Source: Rosistilla oblonga
GTDB lineage: Bacteria > Planctomycetota > Planctomycetia > Pirellulales > Pirellulaceae
Direction of reading: 5' to 3'
NCBI RefSeq assembly: GCF_007751715.1
Contig: NZ_CP036292.1
Span: 1,984,001-2,048,000, forward strand
DNA: 64,000 nucleotides
How positions within the stretch are numbered: position 1 is the first letter of the stretch; each line of letters begins with the position of its first letter. This document shows positions 14,001 through 44,269 of this stretch, piece by piece. The notes under the pieces are model-generated. The model had not been told where the DNA came from. It searched no databases and saw only the letters and a list, made by a program, of their open reading frames with translations. A program made the translations under genes and the position numbers.

Positions 14001-14524
14001 TGCAGTCCCTCGGCCTCCAACCTGGCCAGGACAAAATGATCGATCGGGTTGCGCGGCCAATCACCTTGTTTGACTTCGGGCAGCGGAGAACGGACCGGTG
14101 GTTCGTAGGACCAGTGCCGCGCGTAATGCGCTCCCTGTTGGATCCATCGGCGCATCCGATCGATCTCATCGGCGGTCAGTTGTTTGCCTTTGCCCGGGGG
14201 CGGCATCCGCAGGTCTTCGTCGTCGGTCGTCAATCGAGCTATCAGCTCGCTCGCCTCGGGATCGCCCGGCACGATCGCGGCGTAGCCTCCGAGATCGATT
14301 TGCGAACCCGCTTCGGTATCGAAGCGAAGTTCGGTCGAACGAGCGGCTTCATCGGGGCCGTGACACATCACACAATTGTTCGAAAGCAACGAGCGGATTT
14401 CGCGATTAAAATCGACTTGTTGGGCGCGAATGTTATTCACGGACAGCAGTGTGATCGCGAAGACCGCCAGTCGCAGCGAACTGGCTTGTCGTTTCAAGAG
14501 AACACGTTGGCGGTTTTCGATCAT
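11069..14524 (-). CDS. PSCyt1 / DUF1549 / F5-8C / DUF1553 (PSD1) secreted cytochrome-type protein
   Basis: A 1151-residue exported protein. Its Sec signal (MIENRQRVLLKRQ then a hydrophobic stretch ending NIRAQ) sets the start at 14524. The order is: a c-type haem domain with CVMCH around residue 55; DUF1549 (ending near GTTMACAQCHTHKYDPITHEEYF, which adds a second CxxCH); a coagulation factor 5/8-like carbohydrate-binding domain around residues 560-640 (AIDGNTEGDF, WFEIDLKQSHPIDEVVIWNR); and DUF1553 towards the C terminus (TPRVIANRHWEEIFG, RGRTNTPLQALVTLNDP). The family is abundant in planctomycetes and is usually paired with DUF1501, as here. An extracytoplasmic redox role linked to polysaccharide use has been proposed. 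Substrate and electron partner are unknown. Confidence 0.92.
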   Translation of the reverse strand: MIENRQRVLLKRQASSLRLAVFAITLLSVNNIRAQQVDFNREIRSLLSNNCVMCHGPDEAARSTELRFDTEAGSQIDLGGYAAIVPGDPEASELIARLTTDDEDLRMPPPGKGKQLTADEIDRMRRWIQQGAHYARHWSYEPPVRSPLPEVKQGDWPRNPIDHFVLARLEAEGLQPSPAADRYALARRVAIDLTGLPPQWEQVQAFVEDTRDDAFESYVDALLEQPAFGERWARVWLDLARYADSAGYADDPPRTIWAYRDYVIRSLNANKPFDQFTIEQIAGDLLDNPTDEQLIATAFHRNTMTNSEGGTNDEEFRNVAVVDRVNTTMSVWMGTTMACAQCHTHKYDPITHEEYFRFFAIFNNTLDADIKDERPTLPIWTDEQKAQKQQWAEQIADLKATLQQTTPEIEADQAKWLAEIKTPPTWKPLIPAAATAQHRQLTTDAEGWIEASGDKSDHDLYTLRFETAGEQVAGLQLEISPEQSANFVLTQATASWTPTEPQPVDARFVRIELAGKGKMIHLAEVQAFSDSKNIALASAASQSSTGYNAPAARAIDGNTEGDFYKNSVTHTNAEANPWFEIDLKQSHPIDEVVIWNRTDGGASIEQRLKGYKVSLLDARRKVVWEQTPDAIPSPNQSIALGGAVQLRFQNALADYEQSGFPAATTILDKQDTKKGWAIAGGLGQPHQLTLTLDPPRPLAAGVLELQLHQKSVHVRHLLDKVRVRASDSANLTQWASLPNAIRSIVLQTEPLDEKQANQLAAYYRTIAPQLAPVRTQLAKLEKQLADIKPYTTVPIQEELPSEKQRSTYIHLRGDYQSAGADVDRGTPAAFHPLSADRPADRLSLAQWLVDDQNALTPRVIANRHWEEIFGIGIVESSEEFGSQGELPSHPQLLDWLAVELRDSGWDLKALLRLIVTSATYRQSSVTSPELQEKDPANRLLARGPRYRISAEMVRDQALQLSGLLSHKMFGPPAKPPQPNLGLNAAFGSATDWKTSPGDDKYRRGIYTMWRRSSPYPSMATFDAPNREVCTVRRGRTNTPLQALVTLNDPVYVEAAQALARRMLTADSSVRGRVEFGLRTCLLREPTEIEVDRLAALYQQALTEFQADPALAHQLAEEPLGELPDGMDVAEAAAMTVVGNVLLNLDELFLKR

Positions 14525-14866
14525 GAATAGTCGACAGAGCGTAGGAGGGAATGGCGAATTCGGTCCATAGCGGCAGAGCGTCGCGGGGAACGACCGCCGG
14601 CGGAAATCCATTCGCGTCGGCAAACGTTTCGGATGACAGGCGGGAGCGTCAATCGTACGGAAAACTTGGGGAAAGCCGAGGCTTCATGGTACCAGCCCGC
14701 CGAAGGCCAAGCAATTATTTGGCGAATCGCTGCCGCGGTGCCCCGTTGTGGAACTCGTCATGAGTTCCGGGAAGGAGAAGGGAGATCGGCCGTAGATCGA
14801 AAGTCTCGACGGCCTGTTGATTTAATCGCGTGCGAACTTCTTGAATTAGCCGTTTGGGCGTTAGCC

Positions 14867-16352
14867 AAATGGCACTCATTTTCACATTCCAGTAACATTT
14901 CCCTTCCCACCACATGCGATTGGCACTGAATTTGCGCTAGCGGTTTGGTTTTCTTTTGACTGCCAGAAAAAGCCATTCCATGTCGAGCGATGCAAGAACT
15001 CAGAACCTTAGTGCGGCTTTCGAACTGCTCAAACAGTGGACGGACATCGGCGATGCCGATGTGTTTGAAGAGCTTGGGCCAGCGGCCGTCTATAAAACAA
15101 GTGTAGTTCTGTGGCTGATGCTCTTCCAGCGCCTCAACCCCAAGGCGAGTCTGCGAGATGCCGTTCTCCACTTTATCGCAACGGCTCCCCCGGAACTCAA
15201 GACGAACAAGCGACTTCGTGAGGGTTCGCTTTCGACGAAGAGCAGCAGTTACAGCGATGCACGACATCGGCTCAGCTTGAAGGCAGCTCATTGGTTCCAA
15301 GAGCGTGTCGCGTCGTCGATCGTTAACTCGACGGCGCCGACATGGGGTGACCGGCGTGTGTTCTTGATCGATGGAACGACCTTTACACTGGCTCCAGTGG
15401 CCGAGCTTCAGGCCGCTTACCCACCCGCCTCTAACCAGTACGGCGAAAGTGTGTGGCCAATCGCGTATGTGGTTTTCGCACATGAACTCAGCTCGGGGGC
15501 AGCAGTGCCTGAGGAGATTGGAGCTATGTATGGCCCAAACGCCGTCTCAGAAACTCGGCTTGCTCAAACTCTCATGAAGCGACTCCCGGCTAAATCCATC
15601 ATCATGGCCGACGCTGGGTTCGGAATATTTTCGACTGCTTATCATGCCCATTTGAATGGACACAATTTTGTTCTACGGCTAAAGAAAGATCGATTCAATC
15701 GAATTCGGAAGCGGGCAGAGCTAATCCATTCGACAGCCACTTCGAAAAGCTACCGGGTGTCCTGGACTCCTTCGGCCAAGGAACGAGTAACCAATCCAGA
15801 CCTCCCATCCGACTGTGTCATAGCGGCGATGATCCATGAATTGAAGATCGGGGAAGAGAGCCTCTACCTCGTCGAGGATATCGATGCGACGCCCAAGCAA
15901 CTGCGCGATCTGTACTGGAAACGCAACGATATCGAAGTCGATATCCGCAACATCAAACTGGTAATCGGTACCGAAGAGATCCGAGCGAAGTCGAAGGAGA
16001 TGTTTCTCAAAGAGTTCGCCTTGTCGATGGTAGCGTACAATTTAGCGACCCAATTGCGTCGCCAAGCCGCAGTGATTGCCGAGTGTGAGCCCCGCGAATT
16101 AAGCTTTACGGGCGTGTGGTCTGTCTACCGTCACATGCTGCAGGGGATTGAAGTCAGTGACCCCGGTCGTTGGATCGAACGTTTGGATCGCGTGCTGCAC
16201 TACGCCTCAAAGCAAAAGCTTCCCAACCGCCCAGGCCGCAGTTATCCACGCGAGGCCTACGCCCGCCGCCCCAAAACCACCCACTTCCAGAAACGAAGAA
16301 AGAAAAGTAAACCCAACGATCCAGAAGAACCAACGTCAAAGTGAGTGCCATT
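14867..16352 (+). mobile_element. IS4-family insertion sequence, 1486 bp, with 11-bp target duplication
   Basis: The element is bounded by imperfect terminal inverted repeats of about 18 bp: AAATGGCACTCATTTTCAC at the left, and a right end whose complement is AATGGCACTCACTTTGAC. The 11-bp GGGCGTTAGCC flanks it directly on both sides (14856-14866 and 16353-16363), the target size expected for IS4 elements. It carries one intact transposase whose stop lies inside the right inverted repeat. Intact ends, gene and duplication point to a fairly recent, possibly active insertion. Confidence 0.9.
14980..16344 (+). CDS. IS4-family DDE transposase
   Basis: A 454-residue transposase. The DDE triad regions are visible: LIDGTTFTLAP (first Asp), IMADAGFGIF (second Asp), and the IS4 signature Y-(2)-R-(3)-E-(6)-K in YWKRNDIEVDIRNIK with the catalytic Glu. 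ATG at 14980 is preferred over the in-frame TTG at 14956. The C terminus is lysine/arginine-rich. Frame and motifs are intact, so it should be functional. Base usage is a little more A/T-rich and less dominated by GATCG words than in neighbouring genes, as expected for imported DNA. Confidence 0.95.
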   Translation: MSSDARTQNLSAAFELLKQWTDIGDADVFEELGPAAVYKTSVVLWLMLFQRLNPKASLRDAVLHFIATAPPELKTNKRLREGSLSTKSSSYSDARHRLSLKAAHWFQERVASSIVNSTAPTWGDRRVFLIDGTTFTLAPVAELQAAYPPASNQYGESVWPIAYVVFAHELSSGAAVPEEIGAMYGPNAVSETRLAQTLMKRLPAKSIIMADAGFGIFSTAYHAHLNGHNFVLRLKKDRFNRIRKRAELIHSTATSKSYRVSWTPSAKERVTNPDLPSDCVIAAMIHELKIGEESLYLVEDIDATPKQLRDLYWKRNDIEVDIRNIKLVIGTEEIRAKSKEMFLKEFALSMVAYNLATQLRRQAAVIAECEPRELSFTGVWSVYRHMLQGIEVSDPGRWIERLDRVLHYASKQKLPNRPGRSYPREAYARRPKTTHFQKRRKKSKPNDPEEPTSK

Positions 16353-21833: not shown

Positions 21834-21872
21834 TGCAAAATGCCCTTCCGTAGTGAGCTACGGAAGGGCATG
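21834..21872 (-). terminator. Rho-independent terminator after DUF3467 gene
   Basis: A perfect 13-bp stem (TGCCCTTCCGTAG, 21841-21853, and its complement 21858-21870) with a 4-nt loop. On the minus strand it is followed by TTTTGCATT. It lies 37 nt downstream of the DUF3467 stop. Confidence 0.85.
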
Positions 21873-21907: not shown

Positions 21908-22294
21908 CTATTTGTTTTCGCCTTGCTTTTGTTGCGCGGGGCGAACGCGCTTGTTGATGTCGGTTTCCAACACGCCGAAGACAGCTTCGTGACGTGCGAC
22001 CGACATCTGCAGTGCAGCCAACAGACGCTTCGCAGTGAAGAAGTTCACGATGATGCGTTGGTTGACGTTGATCGGATCTTTAGGAACACCGATCGGTTGT
22101 GGGTTCAGACCGAAATCGATGATCAGTTCTTCAGGCGAACCGGTTACGCGACAGAAGTTCGCATAACAGGCTTGTGCGTTTTCGTCGGTGACTTGCACTT
22201 GAACTGGCTGTGATTGCGCTTGTGCGGCTGGGGCTGCGGGGGCAGCAGCTGCTTCGGCCGCTGGCGCTTCTGGTGTTTCCGCGTCTTTGGTCAT
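21908..22294 (-). CDS. DUF3467 protein
   Basis: A 128-residue cytoplasmic protein. After an alanine/proline/glutamine-rich N terminus (residues 5-30) it carries a DUF3467 core: ACYANFCRVTGSPEELIIDF, then IVNFFTAKRLLAALQ and VFGVLETD. The function of this family is not known. It forms a single-gene unit with a strong terminator. The upstream gap contains no other gene. Confidence 0.85.
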   Translation of the reverse strand: MTKDAETPEAPAAEAAAAPAAPAAQAQSQPVQVQVTDENAQACYANFCRVTGSPEELIIDFGLNPQPIGVPKDPINVNQRIIVNFFTAKRLLAALQMSVARHEAVFGVLETDINKRVRPAQQKQGENK

Positions 22295-22683
22295 TCTATC
22301 TTCTCCAATAGGATGTCATTTTCCACCGTATGCGCGGCGGGCTGGCCGCACGCACCCACGATCACAAAACTTGAGGGTTGTTGCCACATTCACTTAAATT
22401 CAATCAACTATCTAATGGCAACACGAGATAGTTGTTGTTTCGTTAGATCGACCAGAGGGGTGTCAAGTTCCAGTGAATACCCACCCAGAGGTCATTTATC
22501 CTATAGTTGTTAAGGGCACAAACGAGCTTGAAGTTGTTGCCCGAACAACCGGAATGACCAGCATTGCTTTTCCTGGGCACCATCGCTGTTAAACAGGAAG
22601 GAACAGGTAGAGCAGTCAAAGTGTGCGGGCGTTTTTCAGTCGTTGTGGCGACGCTTCGTCTGGTGGTCGCAAGAACCCTACTT
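22295..22683. other. Intergenic region with a 9-bp inverted repeat
   Basis: No supported gene. CAACTATCT at 22405-22413 and AGATAGTTG at 22426-22434 form a perfect 9-bp inverted repeat with a 12-nt spacer. It lies between the stop of the M50/HlyD gene and the start of DUF3467. The minus-strand copy is not followed by a T-run, so it may be an operator or mRNA hairpin rather than a classical terminator. Confidence 0.5.
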
Positions 22684-24921
22684 CTAAAAATCAAACTGGA
22701 ATGTTTTGTTCAAGAACCTGTAGAACCGCCAGCCGAGCGATTTGGGAGCCGCGCTGATCTTCGCGGTACCGCGGTATCCAACTCGCATCCCTTCGGAGAC
22801 TTCGGGCAACGGCACTCGGGCTTGGTACGACGCGTTGATCGGTCGCATGTTTCCCGTCTCGGGATCGACCTGAGTATCGAGATCGCCACCGCTCTGACTG
22901 GACAAGCTGGCAGGCGAATATTTCATTTCGGTTCGCGAGACTTGGTCGATCTTCCCGTGCAAGACTTCTAATCGCCTCGCATCGGGCTTCAGTTCCACCG
23001 AGTCGCCCTCTTGGATCAACTGGATGTCGCCCTGATCGACGATCAGGACCGCTTCGATATGACGCGGATCGCCGATCATGCAGATCAGACTCTCCTGAGT
23101 CATCAGCGCGCCAATGTTTTCGGTATCTAGCGGCGATCCCGACCACTCGGGCAAGCGTCCATCCTGCGGGTCTTCGTCGGGTTTATCCGGCGGTGGAATG
23201 ATCACGCCCGAGATCGGCGCTTTGATCTGCAGTTGATCGATCTCTTCTTGAGCTTTGCGGCGCAGTTCGGTGACCGAATCGAGCATCTTCTTTTGCGTCG
23301 TCGTCTGTCCGCTGAGCGACGAATCGTAGCGTTTCAGACGAGACAAGCTGGCTAGTCGAACATCTGCGATTCGCTCTTCGCTTTCCAGGTCCGCCAGTTT
23401 CAGGGTCAGTTGCGAATTCTTCAGGATCGCCAGCGTATCGCCTTCGCGAACCTCGTCGCCTGGTTTGACCAACACCTGCTCGATCTGACCGGGCGTGCCG
23501 GCGTAGACCGAACGCGGATCGGCGGGGCGAACTTCAAACGCACACTTGATGTGGTAGGGCAACGGCACGAAACAGAATGCCGCGATCACGGTGCCAGCGA
23601 CCGCAACGGTAGCGGCCAATCGAGAGCGTTTCACTTTTTGCATTCTCCCCGGAGTGCGAATGAATTTGATCGATTCCCAGATCGGTTTGGCGATCAAGCC
23701 GCCGAAGCCGATGATCGCAAACAAGCGACCGATGACCCGCAAACCGTACGGTTCGAGAACTTGGTTTAAGAACATCACGATGCCGATCACCACGACCCAG
23801 CGGTAGATCACCGACGCGACGGTGAACATTCCAAACATGAACCGGTTCCGCTGCGGCAGGAACGGATTCTCCTGCAGTTCCAAACCGAGGCAGGTTTCCT
23901 GAAACCAACGCTTTAAGGTTTCGGTAGCCTTCTGACGCAGGTTGGGAATCTCCAGCCAATCCATCAGGATGTAATAGCCGTCGAATCGCAGCAGCGGGTT
24001 GGCGTTAAAGACAACCGTGCTGACCGAGCAGATAAACATCGTTGCCAGGAAGGTGAAGTTCAGCAGGCCCGGTTCGCTGAACCACCATAACCAGGTCGCA
24101 AACGATGCCAGGATTAATTCGACATACATTCCACCGGCACCGATCCAGACTCGCTTCCATTTATTGGGAAGCATCCAGGAGTCCGATACGTTGCAATACA
24201 GGCAGGGTGTAAAGACTAGTAACATGAACCCCAGTTCATGGCACTCTCCACCAAACCGTTTACACGACAGACCGTGGCCAAATTCGTGGCAGATCTTCAC
24301 GACCGCCATCAACAAGCCCATGTACAGCCAGTTTTCGGCGGCGAAAAATTCTTGGAACGACGGCAGTTTCGAGCGGAACAACTCAAAGTTCATTCCGACA
24401 AGAATCAGCGTGATCAATCCAAAGCCGACGAAAAAGATAAGTGCAGGAACGGTGAAGACCCATCCCAACACGGGGTTCATACGACGCAGGATTCCCTCGG
24501 GATCGATCCCGCGAAATCGAATCGCAAAGATGTTGGCCAGTTTGCCCAGCAGTTCCTTCTTCTTTTTTTCGCTGCCACGTTTTCGCAGTTGGCCGCCTTG
24601 GCCGGGAGAGTTGGAGATCACCAGCCCGCTGCGGTGCAGCATGCCGAGGAATTGTTGCAGGTCGCCGAATGTGATTTTCTGCGGAGCGAATTCCTGTTCA
24701 AACCCATCCTTGATCTGCTGCAGACTGACGTGCCCATCGAGCATCTGCAGGATGAAATATTCCTCGTCGTGGAAGCGGAAATACTGCAGCCCCACAGGTT
24801 CCTTGACGACCCAATAACTGGTCCCCTGATACATGTGACGACTGCTCGTCAAATCAGGACGCTTCCGAACCGAAAGCGGTCTTGATGAGCTGCTGATCAG
24901 GCTATCGGCGAGCGTTGTCAT
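22684..24921 (-). CDS. PqqD-like / M50 site-2-protease-like / HlyD fusion membrane protein
   Basis: A 745-residue multipass protein. Residues 30-100 resemble a PqqD-type peptide-binding fold (YWVVKEPVGLQYF, LDGHVSLQQIKDGF, FLGMLHRSGLV). An M50 metalloprotease core follows with about eight membrane segments: HEFGH at 212-216 gives the two His and the Glu, and NPLLRFDG at 308-315 supplies the third zinc ligand. After the last membrane segment is a HlyD/biotinyl-lipoyl adaptor domain (GTPGQIEQVLVKPGDEVREG, then LQIKAPISGVII). The C terminus is aromatic-rich (GWRFYRFLNKTFQFDF). It is the last gene of a three-gene run with two other HlyD-domain proteins. Related proteins are annotated as peptide zinc metalloproteases; the substrate is unknown. 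Confidence 0.88.
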   Translation of the reverse strand: MTTLADSLISSSSRPLSVRKRPDLTSSRHMYQGTSYWVVKEPVGLQYFRFHDEEYFILQMLDGHVSLQQIKDGFEQEFAPQKITFGDLQQFLGMLHRSGLVISNSPGQGGQLRKRGSEKKKKELLGKLANIFAIRFRGIDPEGILRRMNPVLGWVFTVPALIFFVGFGLITLILVGMNFELFRSKLPSFQEFFAAENWLYMGLLMAVVKICHEFGHGLSCKRFGGECHELGFMLLVFTPCLYCNVSDSWMLPNKWKRVWIGAGGMYVELILASFATWLWWFSEPGLLNFTFLATMFICSVSTVVFNANPLLRFDGYYILMDWLEIPNLRQKATETLKRWFQETCLGLELQENPFLPQRNRFMFGMFTVASVIYRWVVVIGIVMFLNQVLEPYGLRVIGRLFAIIGFGGLIAKPIWESIKFIRTPGRMQKVKRSRLAATVAVAGTVIAAFCFVPLPYHIKCAFEVRPADPRSVYAGTPGQIEQVLVKPGDEVREGDTLAILKNSQLTLKLADLESEERIADVRLASLSRLKRYDSSLSGQTTTQKKMLDSVTELRRKAQEEIDQLQIKAPISGVIIPPPDKPDEDPQDGRLPEWSGSPLDTENIGALMTQESLICMIGDPRHIEAVLIVDQGDIQLIQEGDSVELKPDARRLEVLHGKIDQVSRTEMKYSPASLSSQSGGDLDTQVDPETGNMRPINASYQARVPLPEVSEGMRVGYRGTAKISAAPKSLGWRFYRFLNKTFQFDF

Positions 24922-25019
24922 CGAATCTCGATCTCACGTGGGCCGGCTTGTCGCGAGTCGGCGGAATAGTATGTGGTGGCTGTCGGCGATGCGACTTGAA
25001 AAGAGGAGCCGTCTGGGGA

Positions 25020-25949
25020 TTAGTTCAAGCTGACGTTGGATGGCGGCATGATTTGCATCTCCGCTTGCATCCCCGGGCTGACCAGATACCGGCCGCCTTC
25101 GACGCGATTGACGATCTTCGCCCAAACGCGATAGGTGTTGTCGCTTTCCAGGATCGGGCTGACGTATTCCAAGCGGCTTTCGAAATCGACGTAGCGGTTG
25201 CCGCCAACGTGAACGCGGATCGCTACGGGAGCTCCCATCACGATTCGTTCGGGGGCGTCGAGTCCTTTGACGTCTCCTTCGACCTTGATCTCATCGATTC
25301 TCACGACGCGGACGATCGGTGTGCCAGCTTGCACCCATTCGCCGCTCTTGGCATACCGTCGTGCGATGATGCCATCGAAGGTTGCCGTGATCTGGCGTCG
25401 TTTGATTTCGTGTTCGGCCAATCGACGCTCTGCGGTTTTGGCAGCAAAGGTCGCCACGGCGACTTGTTGTTCGTTTTTCGCCATCTCGATCGCCAGCTTC
25501 GATCGCTCGGCTTCGAGGACTTCGCGACGCATGTCCCAGTAGGGCATGGCTTGTTTCTTGTGCAGTTCCTCGGCCGACTTGGCTTCCGCCCATTCGTATT
25601 CCATCGATTTCTCGGCGGCCCGAATGTTGACGTCGTTTTCGGCTTGCAGCCGAGCCTGCTGCTCCTCCGCCTCTTTCAACACCAGGTTCAGCTTTGCTTG
25701 CTCGGGATCGATCATCGCGATCACCTTTCCCGTCTGAACCAGCTTGCCCTCTTCGACATCTTGGTTGTCGAGGAACAAGATTCCGTCGGCACCGGCGGAG
25801 ATCTTGATGTCGTCGATCGCTTCGACCAAGCTGTCGCGGACTGGGATCGGAGAGTTATCCGATTGAGCCGAGGCGAGGTTGTCCAGCAATCCGATCGATG
25901 TCGCCAGCAGGGCGATGGCCAAGGGTTTGTGGTTTGCGAGGATATTCAT
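25020..25949 (-). CDS. Periplasmic HlyD/RND-type membrane fusion protein
   Basis: A 309-residue adaptor with a cleavable signal (hydrophobic core AIALLATSIGLL, ending near NLASAQ). The first half of the lipoyl domain (ADGILFLDNQDVEEG) is followed by an alpha-helical coiled-coil hairpin of about 100 residues (rich in A, E, K, Q). The second lipoyl half (ITATFDGIIARRYAKSGEWV) and a beta-barrel complete the fold. Such proteins bridge inner-membrane transporters to outer-membrane channels. It sits between the M50/HlyD gene (98 nt downstream) and the GAF-HlyD gene (131 nt upstream), all co-directional. No ABC or RND pump or TolC homologue is adjacent. Confidence 0.9.
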   Translation of the reverse strand: MNILANHKPLAIALLATSIGLLDNLASAQSDNSPIPVRDSLVEAIDDIKISAGADGILFLDNQDVEEGKLVQTGKVIAMIDPEQAKLNLVLKEAEEQQARLQAENDVNIRAAEKSMEYEWAEAKSAEELHKKQAMPYWDMRREVLEAERSKLAIEMAKNEQQVAVATFAAKTAERRLAEHEIKRRQITATFDGIIARRYAKSGEWVQAGTPIVRVVRIDEIKVEGDVKGLDAPERIVMGAPVAIRVHVGGNRYVDFESRLEYVSPILESDNTYRVWAKIVNRVEGGRYLVSPGMQAEMQIMPPSNVSLN

Positions 25950-26080
25950 TCAGTTCACCGTTGATGTTGAGATAAGTGCGGAATCGGCGATGCAGTGGAG
26001 AGGACGTCGATCGCAATGTGGAGGCGTGCGGTAGCGGACCGGGGGAACAGGTTGTTTGATCTCCCGAGCGAAACCCAGAC

Positions 26081-28135
26081 CTAAAACCATTTGAAGAGAA
26101 TTGTTTGGAACCATTCGTAGGCGCCGTGGAACCAGACGAATCCGGCAGCTCGGCGGCCGCAGTAGACGTCCGCAGTCACCTTCGCACCTGGGCGAGGTTG
26201 CAGCGTCGAGAGATCGATCGGATCGGCTCGCAGCGTGACAACGTTCCCTTCCTCCTGATCGGGTTCGGCTCGCAATTCACGTGCGGTCAGCACGGCTTTC
26301 ATCTCGTGATCCGGATCGGTCGCGAGGATGAAGGTGACCGGCAACGGTTCGCCGCCAGCCGCCGCGACGGCGCGATCCAGGTGATCCATCTTCTTTTCGG
26401 GCATCTTCAATTTCAGATGCATCGGCTTGGAAAGATCGGCAATCGTCAACAGCACTTGGCCGGTGACAACCGGACGCGAACGGAGTGTCTTTTCAACATC
26501 CCAGGTCACGATCTGGCCGTCGATCGGAGCGGTGATGATCAATTGTGAGAGGCGTTCGTCGAGCAATTCTTGCTTCAGCAGCAGGCTGTTCAGCTCGGTC
26601 CGCTTCTCCGCCTCTTCACCCTTCAGCCGCGTTTCTTCCTGCTCTTCGCCCTTTCGCGATTTGCGGACGTCGTCCAATTCGTATCGGATCCGCGTCAGCG
26701 AAGCTTGGGCGGTGCGAATGCGGCCCATCGTCTCGGCATAGTCTTCTTCGACTTGGCGATTTCGCAGCTTCACCAACACCTGGCCCTTGGTGACGTTCAT
26801 ACCGTGGGCTGCGGCGACTTCGATGATCTCGCCATCGATCGGCGCGAAGACCTCTTGCCGGATCGTGGGCTGCAACGTGCCGGGGCAATCGAGCGCGAAG
26901 TCCAAGGGGACAAAGATCATCCCCAGGATTGCAGCGGTCAGAAGCGCCACGACAGCAAGTGTTTTGGGGAGCGTACGCGCTTTGATGATCCAAGCCGCTT
27001 TGCCCAAGGTGCGCCAGACGGGCATCAAGAACAAACTGTTGTGTTGCATCGAGTTGGCGATGGCTCGCGTGCCGTGTTCGTAAACCAGGTTCACGCGGCT
27101 GCGGAAGACTTCATCGGGCAGACTGCTTTCGATCTGTTCGACGATCAACGCTCCGATCACGTCGCCGCGATGCGCGTTATCGCGTTCGATCTCGCCGACG
27201 TTCTTGTTAAGTGCGTCATCGTTGCCGCGGCTCGGTTCTCGCAGCGGCAGGACTGCGATGTGGCGACCGTAAGATTGATCGACGTAGTCTTCGACGGCTT
27301 CTTCGATCTGCGGAGGCAAATCCTCGGTGGATCCATCGTGCCACAGCGGTTCACCCGCGGCGACGACGCGCGTCGCCAGATTGTTCAGCGAAGAGACGAT
27401 GTTGGAGCGGTTTTCGATCGTGTCCTGGCCACTGATCGCCAGCACCTTGCATTTGCGGCCGCGCATCGTCGCCACGCTCACGCGGTCGCAACCGATCAGA
27501 CGCCGGCCTTCGTTAGCGATCACGTAAGCGGTTTCTTTCAGGTCCAACGATTCGTGAGCGGCTCGCGCGAAACCATCGGCTTGCTGCCACAAGACTTGAC
27601 GATCGGAGAACAATCGCAGTTGTTGCCCCTTGAGCCAGTCGCCGGCGAGGTCGGACATCTGCCCCAAAAAACGCAGATAACCCTTTTGCGTTTCGGGAGG
27701 CGAATCGGGGCGTTGGAAGACTTCGATCAGCCCTTCGACCTGATGCTCGCTGCGAAGTGGCGAGAGGACCAACAGGAAGCGGGTCGGATTCCCTTCGGCC
27801 TCGCCATCGGTGGTTCCCGAATAGGGTGGAACCAGCAATTGTTGGCCCGCTCCAGCGACGCGGCGCAGCAAGCGGTTGTGCTTGTTGGCGTCGTCCGAAT
27901 CGGTCTCCAGCAGCGATTGACTGGTGTTGATCTGGTATTCCAGCTTCAATTGACGGTCGTCATCGAACAACCAGATCGCACCTCCCACCGCCGCCAGCGC
28001 AGAGATCACCCGCTGAAGCAATTGAGGGTAGTACTCCTCCGCCGGAGCTCCGCTCTTGGACAGCGCCGCGATCTCGTTGACCAAGCCGCGGATCTGATTT
28101 TTGGTTTGTTCAACCGTTTCTTGATTGACAGCCAT
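26081..28135 (-). CDS. GAF-GAF-TM-HlyD fusion protein
   Basis: A 684-residue protein with two predicted cytoplasmic GAF-like domains (about 35-175 and 190-375). In the second, YVIANEGRRLIGCDRVSVA and HIAVLPLRE are typical GAF strands. One membrane segment lies at 391-411 (TLAVVALLTAAILGMIF). A periplasmic HlyD adaptor follows (FAPIDGEIIEVAAAHGMNV, coiled coil about 465-545, then LIITAPIDGQIV). The C terminus ends in an aromatic segment (YEWFQTILFKWF) like that of the M50 partner. GAF domains bind small ligands or sense redox state, so ligand state may gate the adaptor. It is first in the minus-strand run and divergent from a second GAF-like gene. Confidence 0.87.
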   Translation of the reverse strand: MAVNQETVEQTKNQIRGLVNEIAALSKSGAPAEEYYPQLLQRVISALAAVGGAIWLFDDDRQLKLEYQINTSQSLLETDSDDANKHNRLLRRVAGAGQQLLVPPYSGTTDGEAEGNPTRFLLVLSPLRSEHQVEGLIEVFQRPDSPPETQKGYLRFLGQMSDLAGDWLKGQQLRLFSDRQVLWQQADGFARAAHESLDLKETAYVIANEGRRLIGCDRVSVATMRGRKCKVLAISGQDTIENRSNIVSSLNNLATRVVAAGEPLWHDGSTEDLPPQIEEAVEDYVDQSYGRHIAVLPLREPSRGNDDALNKNVGEIERDNAHRGDVIGALIVEQIESSLPDEVFRSRVNLVYEHGTRAIANSMQHNSLFLMPVWRTLGKAAWIIKARTLPKTLAVVALLTAAILGMIFVPLDFALDCPGTLQPTIRQEVFAPIDGEIIEVAAAHGMNVTKGQVLVKLRNRQVEEDYAETMGRIRTAQASLTRIRYELDDVRKSRKGEEQEETRLKGEEAEKRTELNSLLLKQELLDERLSQLIITAPIDGQIVTWDVEKTLRSRPVVTGQVLLTIADLSKPMHLKLKMPEKKMDHLDRAVAAAGGEPLPVTFILATDPDHEMKAVLTARELRAEPDQEEGNVVTLRADPIDLSTLQPRPGAKVTADVYCGRRAAGFVWFHGAYEWFQTILFKWF

Positions 28136-28699
28136 ATTCTGCTGTGTTCCGGAACGAGGAAGAGAGCCTATCGAATGTTTTACCGACCCTAGCGAGCTGG
28201 GTGCCTGCTTCAGACAACTTCAACCTATCGCAAACTTGTTGGATCTCCACCGCCAAACGTTGGGCATGTAGATTTCTTAAATCTTCGATGCGGAAATTGT
28301 CGAATGTTAGGATTCTTGCCAGGTGTTGCTTTAATGCAACGCCGACATCTACGACCCTCCAGCTGCCACAAGAGTTCCCTAGCTAGAATTACCTATCGGC
28401 AGCAGCTTATACTAAATGTATAAGCAGTATGTCGGATTGCAACCGATTTGCCGAAATTGCGGGGAACAAAACTTCAGCGTTTTCCGTCACAATCGCTCAC
28501 AAACCGTCTCGTCCACCGCCGCCGATGCGCCAGCAAATCGCAGGCGTTATGTCCGTTGCGATCGCGACGATTTGCCATCATTTTCTGCAAATTCGTTGCC
28601 GACCACCGGATCGGGCTCGAACTTGCCGGTGCGGTCGGCCAAGTTGTTGGTTGATTGAGTCGGACAGATTTCGCTTTTCGGATCGCTTGGACGTAGTGC
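28136..28699. promoter_or_regulatory. 564-bp divergent intergenic region with palindrome
   Basis: No supported gene. GCTTATAC (28405-28412) and GTATAAGC (28418-28425) form a perfect 8-bp inverted repeat around TAAAT. It lies between the GAF-HlyD gene (minus) and the GAF-like gene (plus), where a shared regulator could act. The region is more A/T-rich than the flanking genes, as expected for promoters. Confidence 0.45.
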
Positions 28700-29587
28700 A
28701 TGAACGAAGCAACGCTCGTAGAAGCTTTCCGCGGGATTCCGCGTCGCGATTCGGTGCGGATCGGAATCCAGGTCGGTAAGCTGCGCAAGGTCTGTATGGG
28801 AGACCAAGCGTTGGAGGCCTTTTTTCCTGAAGCGTTAGACATTTTGTTGCGGTTGTTCCATGCGCCAGCCGGTGCGTTCTGGTTTCGGCCGTTTAACGCG
28901 ACCACGCTGTTCCCGATCTCGCGGGTCGGGTTTGAACAGTTGTCGCTCTCGAATTCCTGTCTGTCGGCGTGCGAACAGATGGTGCGTGGGGCTTGGCAGT
29001 CGCTGGCGCCTCAGGTGCGTCCGATCGACCGATCGTTTGTCTCGTTGATCGGTCCGATCCGCGACGGTTCGACATCGATCGGAGCGCTGCAGTTGGTCGC
29101 CGATAGTGGTGGCGATGAAGATCAGCAGCCGAAGTTGGTCTACGCCCGCGCCATGGCGGGTGTGCTGTCGTTGATCCAGCCGGCGATCCATCGGCGGATG
29201 CAGGTCGGCGAGACGTCGATCCGCGAAGCGACCGACCGATTGGCTCAGTTAGCCGATCAGCTGACGGGACTGCAGCAATCGATGCGGCATGCGATCGACC
29301 AGACCTTGGGGCAATTGCGAGGCGCATCGTTTGGGTCGCTGGAGGCGAATCAGCAGTTCACTCGCGTGATCCACGAGTTGCTGGAAACGCACGGCCTGCG
29401 CGTCGTCTGTCCCGAGTGTGGTGCGGCGGCGATCCTTCGCTGCTCCAAAAATCCCCGCACCCGCGACGGCGTCTTTGTGTTCGACCACAGCGTTGCAGGC
29501 CGGCGAACGTTCCACGGCGGATACACGACGCTGCCGGTACTGCAGGTCGTCAGCAAGCCGCCGCGGCGCGGTAAATCGCTGGCTTGA
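28700..29587 (+). CDS. GAF-like protein with C-terminal zinc-ribbon motif
   Basis: A 295-residue soluble protein. Residues about 40-160 resemble a GAF domain (LDILLRLFHAPAGAFWF, FVSLIGPIRDG, IGALQLVAD). A helical linker (REATDRLAQLADQLTGLQQ) follows, and the C terminus has CPECG at 237-241 with another Cys at 248, suggesting a small zinc ribbon. No signal peptide. It is divergent from, and shares its GAF-type fold with, the GAF-HlyD fusion, so it may be a cytoplasmic sensor or regulator of that operon. No catalytic domain was recognised. Confidence 0.65.
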   Translation: MNEATLVEAFRGIPRRDSVRIGIQVGKLRKVCMGDQALEAFFPEALDILLRLFHAPAGAFWFRPFNATTLFPISRVGFEQLSLSNSCLSACEQMVRGAWQSLAPQVRPIDRSFVSLIGPIRDGSTSIGALQLVADSGGDEDQQPKLVYARAMAGVLSLIQPAIHRRMQVGETSIREATDRLAQLADQLTGLQQSMRHAIDQTLGQLRGASFGSLEANQQFTRVIHELLETHGLRVVCPECGAAAILRCSKNPRTRDGVFVFDHSVAGRRTFHGGYTTLPVLQVVSKPPRRGKSLA

Positions 29588-35358: not shown

Positions 35359-36096
35359 ATGCGAAGTGAAGAGAGCTGTCTGTTGGAACAACCTTTGCAA
35401 ACGGCTGAAGGCACGCTGACCCGGCGAGATCGTCGCGGCGGTTCGTTTGTCGGCAGTCGCGTTGCAGAGGCGCCCCCGTTGCCCGAATGCCTTGGTACGC
35501 CATGGTGGAAGCGGGGGTGCGATATCGTCGGAGCTTCGCTGTTGCTGTGCCTTTTGCTCCCTTTTCTGCTCGCCGTCGCATGTTACATCCGGATCGTTTC
35601 GAAGGGACCCGCTCTCTTTTTCCAACGCCGCGTCGGTGAGGGGGGCAAGCATTTCAACATCATCAAATTCCGCACGATGGATGTTCGACCCGAAGCGACC
35701 GCCGAACACCGAGTCTACGTGGAGCGGTTGACCACGCAAGACGCTCCGATCGAAAAGCCTGATCATACGAACAGAATCATTCCCGGGGGAAACTTTCTGC
35801 GACGCAATTCGATCGACGAATTCCCCCAGCTTTTGAACGTCCTGTTCGGGACGATGAGCTTGGTCGGCCCACGCCCCGATCTGCTGGAAATCGAAGACTA
35901 CGAACCCTGGCAGCTGCGACGATTTGCAGTCCTGCCCGGGATGACGGGACTCTGGCAGGTGAGCGGCAAGAACCGGCTGACGTTCCGCGAGATGATTCAA
36001 TTGGACATCCAATACGTCGAAGCCCGTTCGTTTGCGTTGGACCTGCGGATCTTGTTGAAGACCTTTTCGGTCGTCGTCCAACAGGACAACGATTGA
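35359..36096 (+). CDS. Polyprenyl-phosphate sugar-1-phosphate transferase (priming enzyme)
   Basis: A 245-residue bacterial sugar transferase of the WcaJ/WbaP catalytic-domain type. It transfers a sugar-1-phosphate to undecaprenyl phosphate to start repeat-unit synthesis. One membrane segment (ASLLLCLLLPFLLAVACYI) is followed by FNIIKFRTMDV, IDEFPQLLNVL, MSLVGPRPDL and LPGMTGLWQVSGKN. The N-terminal 45 residues are basic/polar and not conserved. First gene of the plus-strand polysaccharide cluster. Confidence 0.95.
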   Translation: MRSEESCLLEQPLQTAEGTLTRRDRRGGSFVGSRVAEAPPLPECLGTPWWKRGCDIVGASLLLCLLLPFLLAVACYIRIVSKGPALFFQRRVGEGGKHFNIIKFRTMDVRPEATAEHRVYVERLTTQDAPIEKPDHTNRIIPGGNFLRRNSIDEFPQLLNVLFGTMSLVGPRPDLLEIEDYEPWQLRRFAVLPGMTGLWQVSGKNRLTFREMIQLDIQYVEARSFALDLRILLKTFSVVVQQDND

Positions 36097-36167
36097 TCCA
36101 GGGCCGCCCGCATCCGCCCACCACTGTTTGACTGCCTGAACTGAATAAACACCAAGAGCTTACTTCT

Positions 36168-37202
36168 ATGATTCGTGTTGGTATCGTTGGCCTCGGCTAT
36201 TGGGGACCTAATCTGGTCCGTTGTTTTTCGGATATTGAAGGAGCCAAAGTGACGGCCGTCTGCGACCAGAGTCGCGACAACCTGTGCCGCATCACCGATC
36301 ACTTCCGTGGCGTCACCCCGTTTGAGAGCTTCCAAGAGATGCTCGATCGCGATGTGATCGATGCCGTTGTGATCGCGACTCCCACGGCGACTCACTTTCA
36401 ACTGGCCAGCGACGCCCTCAAGCACGGCTTGCACGTATTTGTCGAGAAGCCGCTGGCGAAGACCTCCGAAGAGTGTCGCAAGTTGATCGATCTGGCTGAA
36501 CAACACAACCGCACGCTGTTTGTTGGGCACGTCTTCCTGCACAGCGCCCCGGTCATGAAGCTCCGCGAAATCATCGCCTCGGGCGAACTGGGGAACATCA
36601 ATTACATCAGCAGTCGCCGGTTGAACCTGGGCCCCGTGCGGACCGATGTCAGCGCCCTGTACGACCTCGCGCCGCACGACATTTCGATGATGCTGTATCT
36701 GTTGGATCAGCAACCCGAAACCGTCACCTGCAGCGGATTCGATCGGCTCAACCCTGGGATTCACGACGTTTGCAACGTCTCGATGAAGTTCGCCGGCAAC
36801 CGCATGGGAATGATCCACGTCAGCTGGTTGGACCCGCGCAAGGAGCGTGTCTTGACTGTCGTTGGCGACAAAAAAATGGCGATCTACGACGACCTGGAAC
36901 AGGAGAAGATCAAGATCTTCGATAAGGGAATCGATGCGCCGCCGCCGGCCAGTGGTGACTTTGCCGATTTCCAAATGTCCTACCGCTACGGCGGCAGTTA
37001 CAGCCCGTTCGTTCAGGAACGCGAACCGCTGAAAGCCGAGTGCGCGGATTTCATTCGTTGCATCGTCGACGACGACGTGCCACTGACCGATGGCGTCAAC
37101 GGCTTGCAAGTCGTCGAGGTCCTCGAAGCGGCTCACCATTCGTTGCACCAGGGCGGCCAGCCGGTCGATCTGGTCGCCGCCCGATCGATTGCGACTTCTT
37201 AG
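36168..37202 (+). CDS. Gfo/Idh/MocA oxidoreductase, WbpB/WlbA-like sugar dehydrogenase
   Basis: A 344-residue cytoplasmic NAD-dependent sugar oxidoreductase. IRVGIVGLGYWGPNL is the Rossmann motif, and VFVEKPLAKT contains the catalytic Lys. RTDVSALYDLAPHDIS is characteristic of 3-dehydrogenases for UDP-N-acetyl-glucuronate. With the aminotransferase and acetyltransferase that follow, it fits the WbpB-WbpE-WbpD route to a 2,3-diacetamido-uronic acid nucleotide sugar. The 6-dehydrogenase (WbpA) is not in the window. Confidence 0.9.
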   Translation: MIRVGIVGLGYWGPNLVRCFSDIEGAKVTAVCDQSRDNLCRITDHFRGVTPFESFQEMLDRDVIDAVVIATPTATHFQLASDALKHGLHVFVEKPLAKTSEECRKLIDLAEQHNRTLFVGHVFLHSAPVMKLREIIASGELGNINYISSRRLNLGPVRTDVSALYDLAPHDISMMLYLLDQQPETVTCSGFDRLNPGIHDVCNVSMKFAGNRMGMIHVSWLDPRKERVLTVVGDKKMAIYDDLEQEKIKIFDKGIDAPPPASGDFADFQMSYRYGGSYSPFVQEREPLKAECADFIRCIVDDDVPLTDGVNGLQVVEVLEAAHHSLHQGGQPVDLVAARSIATS

Positions 37203-37258
37203 ATCGACGATCGCGGCGTTGTCTCGACTCATCCCATTTACCTCGGAGAAGTGATCCC

Positions 37259-37837
37259 TTGCACCACGCCACTGCAATCGTTGAAACCGACACCATCGGT
37301 CCCGAAACCAACGTTTGGGCCTACGCCCATGTGATGCCCGGCGCTATCGTCGGAAACCGAGTTAACATCGGTGATCATGCGTTTGTCGAAGGAGGCGCTG
37401 TCATTGGTGACAACGTGACGCTCAAGAACAGCGTTTGCGTCTGGGAAGGGATCACGATCGAAGACGATTGTTTCATCGGCCCAGCAGTCACGTTCACCAA
37501 CGATCGCAATCCCCGTTCGCCACGCATGGACGCCGCCGCGCAGCGTTACGCCGAACGGGACAACTGGTTGGCCAAGACCGTTGTTCGCCGCGGTTGTTCG
37601 ATCGGCGCGGCGTCGACGATTTGCCCGGGATTGGACCTGGGAACGTTTTCGATGATCGCCGCTGGCAGCGTGGTCACTCGCGATGTTCCCGCGTTTGCGT
37701 TGGTGATGGGCTCGCCCGCCCGACGCGTCGCCGATGTCTGCAGTTGTGGTCAACGCTTGCCCGGCAAGTTCGACGATTGCGATTGCGAAACCTGTGGCGA
37801 AACGGCAACCCAACGCGTTCAACGCGGATTCAAATAG
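37259..37837 (+). CDS. Hexapeptide acetyltransferase (WbpD-like)
   Basis: A 192-residue left-handed beta-helix acyltransferase. Repeats include VWAYAHVMPGAIVGN, IGDHAFVEGGAVIGDN and SIGAASTICPGLDLG. The start is a TTG at 37259 with GGAG 10 nt upstream; the frame is open to an ATG at 37040, but that overlaps the previous gene. The C terminus holds five cysteines (CSCGQRL, then CDCETCG), a zinc-ribbon-like tail seen in this family. It would acetylate the amino group added by the downstream aminotransferase. Confidence 0.88.
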   Translation: MHHATAIVETDTIGPETNVWAYAHVMPGAIVGNRVNIGDHAFVEGGAVIGDNVTLKNSVCVWEGITIEDDCFIGPAVTFTNDRNPRSPRMDAAAQRYAERDNWLAKTVVRRGCSIGAASTICPGLDLGTFSMIAAGSVVTRDVPAFALVMGSPARRVADVCSCGQRLPGKFDDCDCETCGETATQRVQRGFK

Positions 37838-37908
37838 TACCGACCGTTGGCTGGGCCAAACCAACCGAAACCTAATCTATTCCTTGTCTCCAAGATGCAC
37901 ACAACAAC

Positions 37909-39042
37909 ATGATCCGCCAACTCGATACCGATCTCGAAATCAGCTCGATCCCGCTCGTCGATCTGGCCACCCAATCGCGTCAGATCAAAGAAGACGTTTT
38001 GCGACGGATGTCCGACGTGATCGATTCGGCTCGCTACATCCTCGGACAAGAGGTCCAGGAGTTCGAAGAGCAGTTTGCCGCCTACTGCGGTGTCGATCAT
38101 TGCGTCGGTTTGGCCAATGGAACCGACGCCCTGCACATGGCGCTGCGAGCTCTCGAAGTCGGCGAAGGCGACGAAGTCATCACCGCCGGCAACTCGTTTG
38201 CTGCGACAGCCTTTGCGATCGCTTACTGCGGAGCCCAAGCGGTTTTCGTCGACATCGATCCGGTCGACTTCAACATCGATCCCAATCGGATCGAAGACGC
38301 GATCACGCCGCGAACCAAAGCGATCATCCCGGTCCATCTGTACGGGCAACCGGCGCAGATGGCTGCGATTCGCGAGATCGCCGACCGACATGGCTTAAAG
38401 ATTATCGAAGACGCCGCCCAGGCGCACGGTGCCGAGAGCAACGGTCAACGCTGCGGATCGTTTGGCGACATCGGATGTTTCAGTTTTTATCCCGGCAAAA
38501 ATCTGGGAGCCTTCGGCGACGCCGGGGCCGCGGTCACCAACGATCCCGAATTGGCTGATCGTCTGCGGTTGCTGCGAAACTACGGCCAAAAGGTCAAGAA
38601 TCGCCACGATTGCTTGGGTTACAACTGCCGCATGGACACGTTGCAGGCGTGCGTGCTGCTTTCGAAAATGCAGCATATCGAGGACTGGACCAACAGCCGC
38701 CGGCAGGTTGCGGCTTGGTACGGCGAGGCCCTTGCTGGCACCGATCTGCAGTTGCCGGTCGAGCGCGACGACGCTCGGCACGTCTACCATCTGTACGTCG
38801 TTCGGCATCCGCAGCGCGACGCGATCATCGAGTCGTTGTCGGCGAAGAAGATCTTCTGCGGAGTCCACTATCCGCATCCGCTGGCGACTGCGACGCCGTT
38901 CCAGGATGCCAAAACCTTCCCGGAAGGTTTGCCAGTCTGCACAAGTGCTGCCTCCGCAATTTTGTCGTTGCCGATGTATCCCGAGATGACACAACAGCAT
39001 GTGTCGATGGTTGCCAAGGCTTTAGTTGATTTTGGGTGCTAG
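37909..39042 (+). CDS. DegT/DnrJ/EryC1/StrS aminotransferase (WbpE-like)
   Basis: A 377-residue PLP-dependent sugar aminotransferase. Visible motifs are VGLANGTDALHMAL, VITAGNSFAATAF, VHLYGQPAQM, IEDAAQAHGAE and SFYPGKNLGAFGDAGA, which contains the PLP-binding lysine. It acts on a 3-keto nucleotide sugar. Its position between the dehydrogenase/acetyltransferase pair and the Wzc gene supports a role in making an amino sugar for the polysaccharide. Confidence 0.95.
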   Translation: MIRQLDTDLEISSIPLVDLATQSRQIKEDVLRRMSDVIDSARYILGQEVQEFEEQFAAYCGVDHCVGLANGTDALHMALRALEVGEGDEVITAGNSFAATAFAIAYCGAQAVFVDIDPVDFNIDPNRIEDAITPRTKAIIPVHLYGQPAQMAAIREIADRHGLKIIEDAAQAHGAESNGQRCGSFGDIGCFSFYPGKNLGAFGDAGAAVTNDPELADRLRLLRNYGQKVKNRHDCLGYNCRMDTLQACVLLSKMQHIEDWTNSRRQVAAWYGEALAGTDLQLPVERDDARHVYHLYVVRHPQRDAIIESLSAKKIFCGVHYPHPLATATPFQDAKTFPEGLPVCTSAASAILSLPMYPEMTQQHVSMVAKALVDFGC

Positions 39043-39057
39043 ACCGAGAACCGACGA

Positions 39058-41421: not shown

Positions 41422-41494
41422 CCCTATCTGCGATGAAGTCGACCCGGGCTTCCGCCAAACTTATCAACCGACGCTTCGGCGGATCTAGCGATTC

Positions 41495-44268: not shown

Positions 44269-44269
44269 G

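Follow-up and report, generated by a model that had tools for sequence, protein, structure and literature searches.

A conserved planctomycete operon of HlyD-type adaptors and a membrane protease, with a likely SecA motor encoded elsewhere in the genome

The stretch of DNA analysed here (the window) comprises 64,000 nucleotides, positions 1984001-2048000, of the one-contig, 7.25 Mb genome of the planctomycete Rosistilla oblonga (G000:C1; genomes and loci are cited by our own G and L labels). Its minus strand carries an operon at window positions 21908-28135 that encodes three HlyD-domain proteins, one of them also an M50 (site-2) protease, and a DUF3467 protein. The genes are read in the order P0003, P0002, P0001 and DUF3467, with intergenic gaps of 131, 98 and 389 bases, respectively:

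26081-28135, minus strand: P0003, 684 aa, GAF-GAF-transmembrane segment-HlyD protein (Pfam GAF 8e-7, HlyD_3 4e-9)
25020-25949, minus strand: P0002, 309 aa, periplasmic HlyD adaptor (Pfam HlyD_3 1e-14)
22684-24921, minus strand: P0001, 745 aa, leader-binding (RRE/PqqD) fold, site-2 protease and adaptor (Pfam Peptidase_M50, HlyD_3)
21908-22294, minus strand: P0008, 128 aa, DUF3467 protein, last in the run (PF11950 7.6e-25)

An earlier, sequence-only reading had recognised the run of three HlyD-domain proteins with their M50 and GAF parts; the open reading frames (ORFs; those of the window and of all flanks discussed below were listed with a simple custom gene caller) were confirmed in position and by Pfam, the DUF3467 gene having been missed. 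P0003 is laid out as cytoplasmic GAF domains, a single transmembrane segment (judged by eye) and a periplasmic adaptor; of the two GAF domains that had been assigned to it, the first stands above the cut-off and the second is a weak Pfam match (GAF_3, 0.0044). P0002 begins with an apparent Sec signal peptide, likewise recognised by eye.

The composition of P0001 is central to the interpretation. Peptidase_M50 (5e-8) and HlyD_3 are above cut-off in Pfam, and the match to PqqD is weak (0.012; score 16.3 with a cut-off of 23.4). An AlphaFold2 model computed from 22 sequences (predicted local distance difference test (pLDDT) 80.3, predicted template-modelling score (pTM) 0.56) was compared with known structures by VIA-align and Foldseek, and three parts were distinguished:

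24607-24876, minus strand: residues 16-105, PqqD-like leader-binding fold of a recognition element (RRE) for ribosomally synthesised and post-translationally modified peptides (RiPPs) (VIA-align)
23947-24522, minus strand: residues 134-325, site-2 (M50) protease core (VIA-align and Pfam M50)
22717-23625, minus strand: residues 433-735, periplasmic adaptor with hairpin, MexA/MacA/HlyD type (VIA-align)

The first part matches TbiB1 with its leader (5v1v; Z 10.2, 86 of 88 residues aligned, root-mean-square deviation 3.0), lasso B1 (6jx3; Z 10.0) and TigE (8vpo; Z 9.4); the PqqD-like winged helix that characterises an RRE is thus present in the predicted model, and the PqqD-like part proposed earlier is borne out by fold, its Pfam match being below the cut-off. 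For the protease part, similarity to SpoIVFB (8vjl; Z 9.9) and to an archaeal site-2 protease (3b4r; Z 9.6) falls in a range (Z below about 13) that is weak for helical folds; here, Pfam M50 concurs. The residues H212, E213 and H216 together with N308, P309, D314 and G315 (HExGH and NPLxRxDG) are invariant in all 22 aligned sequences, i.e. P0001 combines the HExxH and NPxxxxDG motifs with the fold of a site-2 protease. The third part resembles MexA (1vf7; Z 13.9, 222 residues aligned) and MacA (Z 12.5; Foldseek, 3fpp, 2.6e-12). According to the model, P0001 unites in a single chain a leader-binding fold, a protease whose active site is intact, and an adaptor; this union of leader binding, cutting within the membrane and adaptor function implies that the cargo bears an N-terminal leader. 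The best family model, daptide_HExxH (NF041824; residues 31-394, 4.9e-50), reaches 170.7 bits with a cut-off of 300, and the LiaK/YydH model (NF058609; residues 162-332, 1.9e-14) 53.9 bits with a cut-off of 225.

The operon is a conserved planctomycete unit, as the sequence-only reading had supposed. A scan of genome contigs with P0001, with flanks of up to 10 kb per side, gave 64 loci, all titled planctomycetes; at 63 of these the best segment reaches 41-64% identity. P0002 is present at 58 of the 64 loci, P0003 at 56, DUF3467 at 45 and the divergent gene P0004 (see below) at 36; several of the loci without one or more operon genes are short contigs. The three core genes (GAF-HlyD, HlyD, M50-HlyD) keep their order and shared strand across the relatives. 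When all ORFs of at least 50 aa in the 64 flanks were clustered all against all, the largest cluster beyond the five named genes comprised 17 loci, on the strand opposite to DUF3467, and no cluster with a median below 119 aa, as would be expected of a small-peptide gene, occurred in five or more loci.

The gene class itself is not new, and in this respect the earlier “undescribed” has to be withdrawn: Kamneva, Poudel and Ward (2015; PMC4452313) describe in silico a secondary SecA_DEAD protein encoded beside M50-HlyD, HlyD and GAF-HlyD proteins and sometimes an outer-membrane efflux protein (OEP). In their proposal, SecA is the ATPase and the M50 protein the membrane part, serving as a pore, and the partners may lie apart in the genome; the broader role of the class was called completely unknown. 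The window operon encodes M50-HlyD, HlyD and GAF-HlyD together as in that class; SecA_DEAD was found neither in the same locus nor elsewhere in the window. The terms DUF4347, PqqD, LEPR, BBP7, giant, porin and DUF3467 are absent from the main text of that paper. What is added to the class here is the RRE fold, BBP7 as the partner of secA, DUF3467, the link to proteins with an LExR motif, and a likely motor encoded in trans.

The candidate motor is a second, short SecA of 682 aa, encoded at 4108633-4110678, about 2.1 Mb from the window operon; it came to light when whole genomes, and not flanks alone, were searched for SecA. Its orthologues stand in cis in related planctomycetes. The order SecA, GAF-HlyD, HlyD, M50-HlyD and DUF3467 on one strand occurs at L138, L139, L140, L146, L147, L148 and L051, and SecA lies downstream of M50 at L143 and L149, an arrangement found at two loci in G280. 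Among 37 genomes searched with the SecA of 4108633-4110678, six of the same family (G264, G254, G107, G177, G250, G246) carry its orthologue on the same strand as that of P0001 and about 3.4 kb upstream of it. Within the 64 window-type relatives, the orthologous SecA lies in the flank of L051 only, and a more distant SecA fragment was seen at the flank edge of L047 and L077. The two halves are separate in G000, G217 and G145, and in several draft genomes contig breaks intervene. DUF3467 genes adjoin the SecA-bearing operons as well; P0004 was not found by tblastn beside those examined.

The association also holds at the level of genome content. Of 292 genomes of the phylum, 24 encode a P0001-type protein (E<=1e-160) and 76 a member of the wider M50-HlyD family (E<=1e-30; with the best three candidates scored per genome, presence and not number was counted). 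Two or more SecA_DEAD proteins, one of them short, are encoded in 24/24 P0001-type genomes versus 5/13 others of the class (Fisher 3e-5), and outside the class a second SecA accompanies M50-HlyD in 30/41 genomes versus 8/214 genomes without it (Fisher 1e-22; best seven SecA candidates per genome, split genes possibly counted twice); both values are too strong because related genomes are counted repeatedly, which tells against the proposal made below. Of 40 relatives that carry the window-type locus or a near one, 37 have an orthologue of secA, 35 of them in a single copy. In both the SecA and the M50 tree, the protein of this genome joins that of G217 first and those of G264 and Anammoximicrobium next, and the pairwise identities of the two proteins are correlated (r 0.98, 66 non-independent pairs). 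SecA and SecA2 models match the short SecA, every score being below the cut-off. Taken together, the secondary SecA is likely to be the motor of the operon, encoded apart from it here and next to it in related genera, and “without a pump”, as the locus had been characterised, seems misplaced: motor and channel genes lie about 2.1 Mb apart, and a search of a single neighbourhood would call the machine pump-less. Another SecA, at 4979434, adjoins the closest paralogue of P0001 (M50-HlyD at 4981288) and was set aside since the SecA of 4108633 groups with the in-cis SecAs of P0001 orthologues and that of 4979434 falls outside (long branches); the correlation of identities (0.90 versus 0.80) separates the two candidates weakly. 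A further secondary SecA-like protein of 585 aa is encoded at L106:8045-9802 (6.553 Mb), with no partner recognised by eye within 20 kb.

Divergent from secA in this genome lies the gene for a BBP7 beta-barrel of 490 aa (PF07585 1.7e-81), homologues of which occupy the same position at L138, L139, L146, L147, L148, L051 and L144. Among the relatives, BBP7 is divergent from secA in 27 of 30 secA loci (two of the 27 being the L144 and L051 genomes again), and two of the three loci without it are close to contig ends. The barrel gene remains with secA where the latter has left the operon. The pattern R...L......[ST] (RLS), which we take to be a TolC-docking motif, is absent from P0002 and from 61 of 62 HlyD orthologues; of six paralogous HlyD proteins, those of L085 and L087, whose clusters include an OEP, have the pattern near the hairpin tip and that of L083 has it elsewhere. 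It is weak evidence, because the HlyD of L086 lacks the pattern although its cluster has an OEP. Judged by these sequence relations, BBP7 rather than TolC is suggested as the exit for the window machine.

A candidate cargo emerged from the neighbours of the cis-SecA operons, where ORFs for large surface-type proteins are found (cyclophilin/dockerin, Big_9 and SdrD_B domains in those scanned) and an N-terminal LExR motif recurs, e.g. MEALEPRAML, METLETRSML or VESLEDRLNL. Among ORFs of at least 250 aa, such N-termini were counted in 18/84 around nine cis-SecA loci, in 5/490 in the flanks of window-type relatives (L074 and L080 included) and in 3/84 in the paralogous loci of this genome (L082, L085, L087); L143 and L149 also have LExR proteins near M50-HlyD. 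An independent profile, PF07595 (Planc_extracel), detects proteins of 824-4,899 aa at distances of up to about 33 kb from the operon in G177, G250, G246, G254 and G107, and at least 29 candidates in this genome, the longest of whose open frames measures 10,282 aa, PF07595 and NF012209 being too short for reliable protein counts. From this genome 30 N-terminal regions were fetched, of which 28 were readable (L164 and L171 gave none): All 28 share a basic stretch followed by a motif near xExLExRxLLA, and in 21 the most hydrophobic 12-residue stretch ahead of the motif has a mean below 0. At L153 (G000:C1:1821237), the frame of 10,282 aa begins with an LExR N-terminus. The protein encoded at L138:2165-5590 combines cyclophilin, Big_9 and dockerin domains with a weak match to thioredoxin; this protein and its relatives at L139, L146, L147 and L148, which are 36-66% identical to it, measure 1141-1177 aa and have a hydrophobic segment before LExR.

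A profile (A3) built from 30 LExR N-termini, six of its rows from genes near M50-HlyD loci, matches in 61 of the 292 genomes (at least 28 matches being counted for this one). Outside the class, LExR matches occur in 20/41 genomes with M50-HlyD versus 14/214 others (Fisher 4e-10, likewise too strong through repeated counting of related genomes), and M50-HlyD is present in each of the 19 genomes that have at least three matches. Among the 150 matches listed, 14 lie within 12 kb of M50-HlyD where 1.7 would be expected, the clearly independent ones being only those of G197 (two) and G046. The cargo assignment of the LExR proteins is favoured by this evidence, if by a narrow balance.

This genome contains eight M50-HlyD genes, P0001 being one of them, and the paralogous loci offer a wider view of the class. 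A short SecA is encoded in three of the clusters (L081, L085, L086), further HlyD proteins in several, and GAF in L083, L084 and L085. At L085 and L087, a divergent gene encodes a giant protein that has DUF4347, repeats of the RTX/FG-GAP or cadherin type and N-terminal LEDR motifs (L085:15675-20000, at 4.69 Mb; L087:15815-19999, at 2.72 Mb); these giant proteins are likely the cargo of the paralogous machines. L088:9794-12355 encodes a GAF-HlyD protein of 853 aa that adjoins another HlyD ORF (12651-15002) and is divergent from a gene whose OEP match stays below threshold; no M50 or SecA was seen there, and the locus is possibly a reduced relative of the machine.

On these grounds, the window operon very probably constitutes the SecA-less half of an exporter. 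More specifically, this half probably supplies the inner-membrane and periplasmic components of a type-I-like machine that is driven by SecA, exports LExR proteins and cleaves their leaders. The gene set, its order and orthology, the parallel descent of SecA, the predicted folds of P0001 with its protease residues, and the clustering and co-occurrence of LExR proteins are the data on which this proposal stands. In such a machine, whose parts would assemble physically, the RRE/PqqD domain of P0001 would bind the basic N-terminus with xExLExRxLLA on large surface proteins, the SecA-like ATPase would drive the unfolded chain, and the site-2 protease domain of P0001 would remove the leader within the membrane. 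The HlyD adaptor domains of P0001, P0002 and P0003 would build a periplasmic conduit to an outer-membrane barrel, for which BBP7, encoded about 2.1 Mb away beside secA, is the candidate channel; the GAF domains may gate the machine by a cytosolic ligand, and the DUF3467 protein may take part as well.

The alternative that survives best retains the SecA machine and has it export proteins other than those with LExR or serve outer-membrane proteins like BBP7, the LExR genes lying near since surface-protein genes cluster. Several findings weigh against the export of LExR proteins by the proposed machine, and part of them point directly to this alternative. LExR N-termini were found in 0/32 ORFs near the window operon and in 0/78 near eight loci with half of the gene set or a lone SecA, BBP7 accompanies secA even outside the operon, and PF07595 proteins (E<=0.01) show no excess co-occurrence outside the class (3/12 genomes with M50-HlyD, about two expected). 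Furthermore, 15 of the 18 motif ORFs around cis-SecA loci belong to three families common to L138, L139, L146, L147 and L148, so that the independent events are far fewer than 18; the L051 match is unlike a leader; 7 of the 28 N-termini of this genome show a mildly hydrophobic stretch (0.7-1.9) before the motif, their start codons being uncertain; and of the 14 profile matches near M50-HlyD, ten lie in genomes that supplied profile rows and one is equivalent to a row. With regard to motor and channel, the P0001-type gene adjoins SecA in 7 of 24 genomes (contig breaks hide some), no secA orthologue was found in three of the 40 relatives searched, all metagenome assemblies, secA has no visible BBP7 neighbour in G145, G268 and G280 (in G264 the contig ends there), and a TolC-like OEP belongs to the paralogous clusters L085, L086 and L087. 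Against other cargo stands the occurrence of LExR proteins near M50-HlyD in different lineages (L082, L085 and L087 of this genome, L074, L080, L143, L149, G197 and G046); in addition, a peptide leader is implied by the presence of an RRE domain, and the N-terminal motif that recurs on the neighbours is LExR. Other cargo is therefore regarded as unlikely, although it deserves to be kept in mind, and export of LExR proteins is preferred.

The sequence-only reading had left the choice between an export machine and regulated intramembrane proteolysis, in which M50 would cut a membrane regulator, the HlyD-like proteins would be sensors or scaffold, the GAF domains would sense ligands and nothing would be exported. 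The site-2 protease fold with its intact active site, the GAF domain and the divergent zinc-ribbon-like gene accord with the latter. Such a system would not be expected to include three adaptor domains or an RRE fold, or to be associated with a SecA ATPase, and it must be considered very improbable: the export half of that choice agrees with the peptide-binding, protease and adaptor folds, and the proteolysis half finds nothing in its favour beyond M50 and GAF. Still less probable is the maturation and export of a small RiPP-type peptide (daptide- or epipeptide-like) with M50 cutting the leaders, for which the daptide_HExxH match and the RRE fold speak, since the score of that match stays below its cut-off, no small ORF recurs near the 64 relatives among ORFs of at least 50 aa, no ABC exporter is encoded among the 28 window ORFs scanned and large LExR proteins are found instead, so that the small-peptide cargo once envisaged gives way to them.

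Two further features accompany the operon:

21840-21871, minus strand: terminator-like hairpin of 14 pairs, 3' of DUF3467 (hairpin scan)
28700-29587, plus strand: P0004, 295 aa, divergent zinc-ribbon-like protein (weak Pfam zinc-ribbon matches)

The scan found 11 such hairpin sites versus 10.0 expected in shuffles, that behind DUF3467 having the longest stem. P0004 had been called GAF-like and zinc-ribbon-like; the weak zinc-ribbon matches agree with the second term, and as to the first, Pfam gave no GAF match and a relationship to the GAF part of P0003 is unsupported (BLASTP E 0.064 across 24 residues). It is possibly an accessory protein, for which a regulatory role is conceivable. A SecB-like chaperone function of DUF3467 was considered and set aside (poor predicted model, pLDDT 57.6), and a role of the locus in defence was rejected (no PADLOC match for six proteins). 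The genes flanking the operon are ordinary in kind: an oxidoreductase and a planctomycete cytochrome-type protein on one side, and a transglutaminase-like protein and translation genes (named by eye) on the other. Farther away, an exopolysaccharide cluster at window 35359-47890 comprises a sugar transferase, a GFO/IDH oxidoreductase, a GNVR/AAA chain-length-type protein, a Wzy-like ligase and a flippase-like protein, and later ORFs resemble glycosyltransferases by eye. A DDE transposase is encoded at window 14956-16344; in two other places of this genome, L088:16934-18358 and L106:2326-3750, there are ORFs of 474 aa that begin and end alike, and a single insertion element has probably given rise to these copies.

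Giant proteins of surface type are numerous in planctomycetes, and the proposed exporter bears on how these leave a cell with two membranes as well as on what the LEPR-XLL/Planc_extracel motif does; it supplies motor, leader reader, leader protease, adaptors and exit channel in one scheme and unites three separate fields, namely SecA paralogues, RiPP leader recognition and type I adaptors. In the literature search, whose coverage of subscription papers is incomplete, no title or abstract linked LEPR-XLL, Planc_extracel, DUF4347 or BBP7 to such a machine.

Compared with the loci described by Kamneva and colleagues, the window operon shares the same protein classes and differs in having its SecA in trans; the secondary SecA of this genome is orthologous to those in cis. 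With type I secretion (HlyB-HlyD-TolC), the periplasmic HlyD adaptors are shared, and giant RTX/cadherin-type proteins adjoin the paralogous loci L085 and L087, a TolC-like OEP being present in L085-L087. In contrast to type I secretion, a SecA-like ATPase and M50 replace the ABC exporter: no ABC (HlyB-type), RND or OEP domain was detected by Pfam in the 28 window ORFs scanned, in line with the earlier statement that no ABC, RND or TolC gene is present. Moreover, the proposed signal is N-terminal, that of type I secretion C-terminal. The daptide (NF041824) and YydH/LiaK (NF058609) M50 proteases likewise combine PqqD/RRE with a site-2 protease; unlike in these, P0001 is fused to an adaptor, no RiPP precursor was seen and both model scores are below cut-off. 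In accessory Sec systems, a second, shorter SecA (SecA2) is thought to serve a subset of proteins. The second, shorter SecA and the matches to SecA2 models are common to both; all SecA2 scores are, however, below cut-off, and the partners here are adaptors and a protease. Set beside these systems, the machine may represent a distinct route for giant proteins, a tentative reading on which the balance falls slightly short: the basic N-terminal LExRxLLA leader, which is the Planc_extracel/LEPR-XLL motif, would be read by an RRE as in RiPP biosynthesis and cut within the membrane by a site-2 protease fused to a periplasmic adaptor, and a dedicated SecA would drive chains that may in some cases, with the same reserve, be thousands of residues long through HlyD adaptors to BBP7 instead of TolC.

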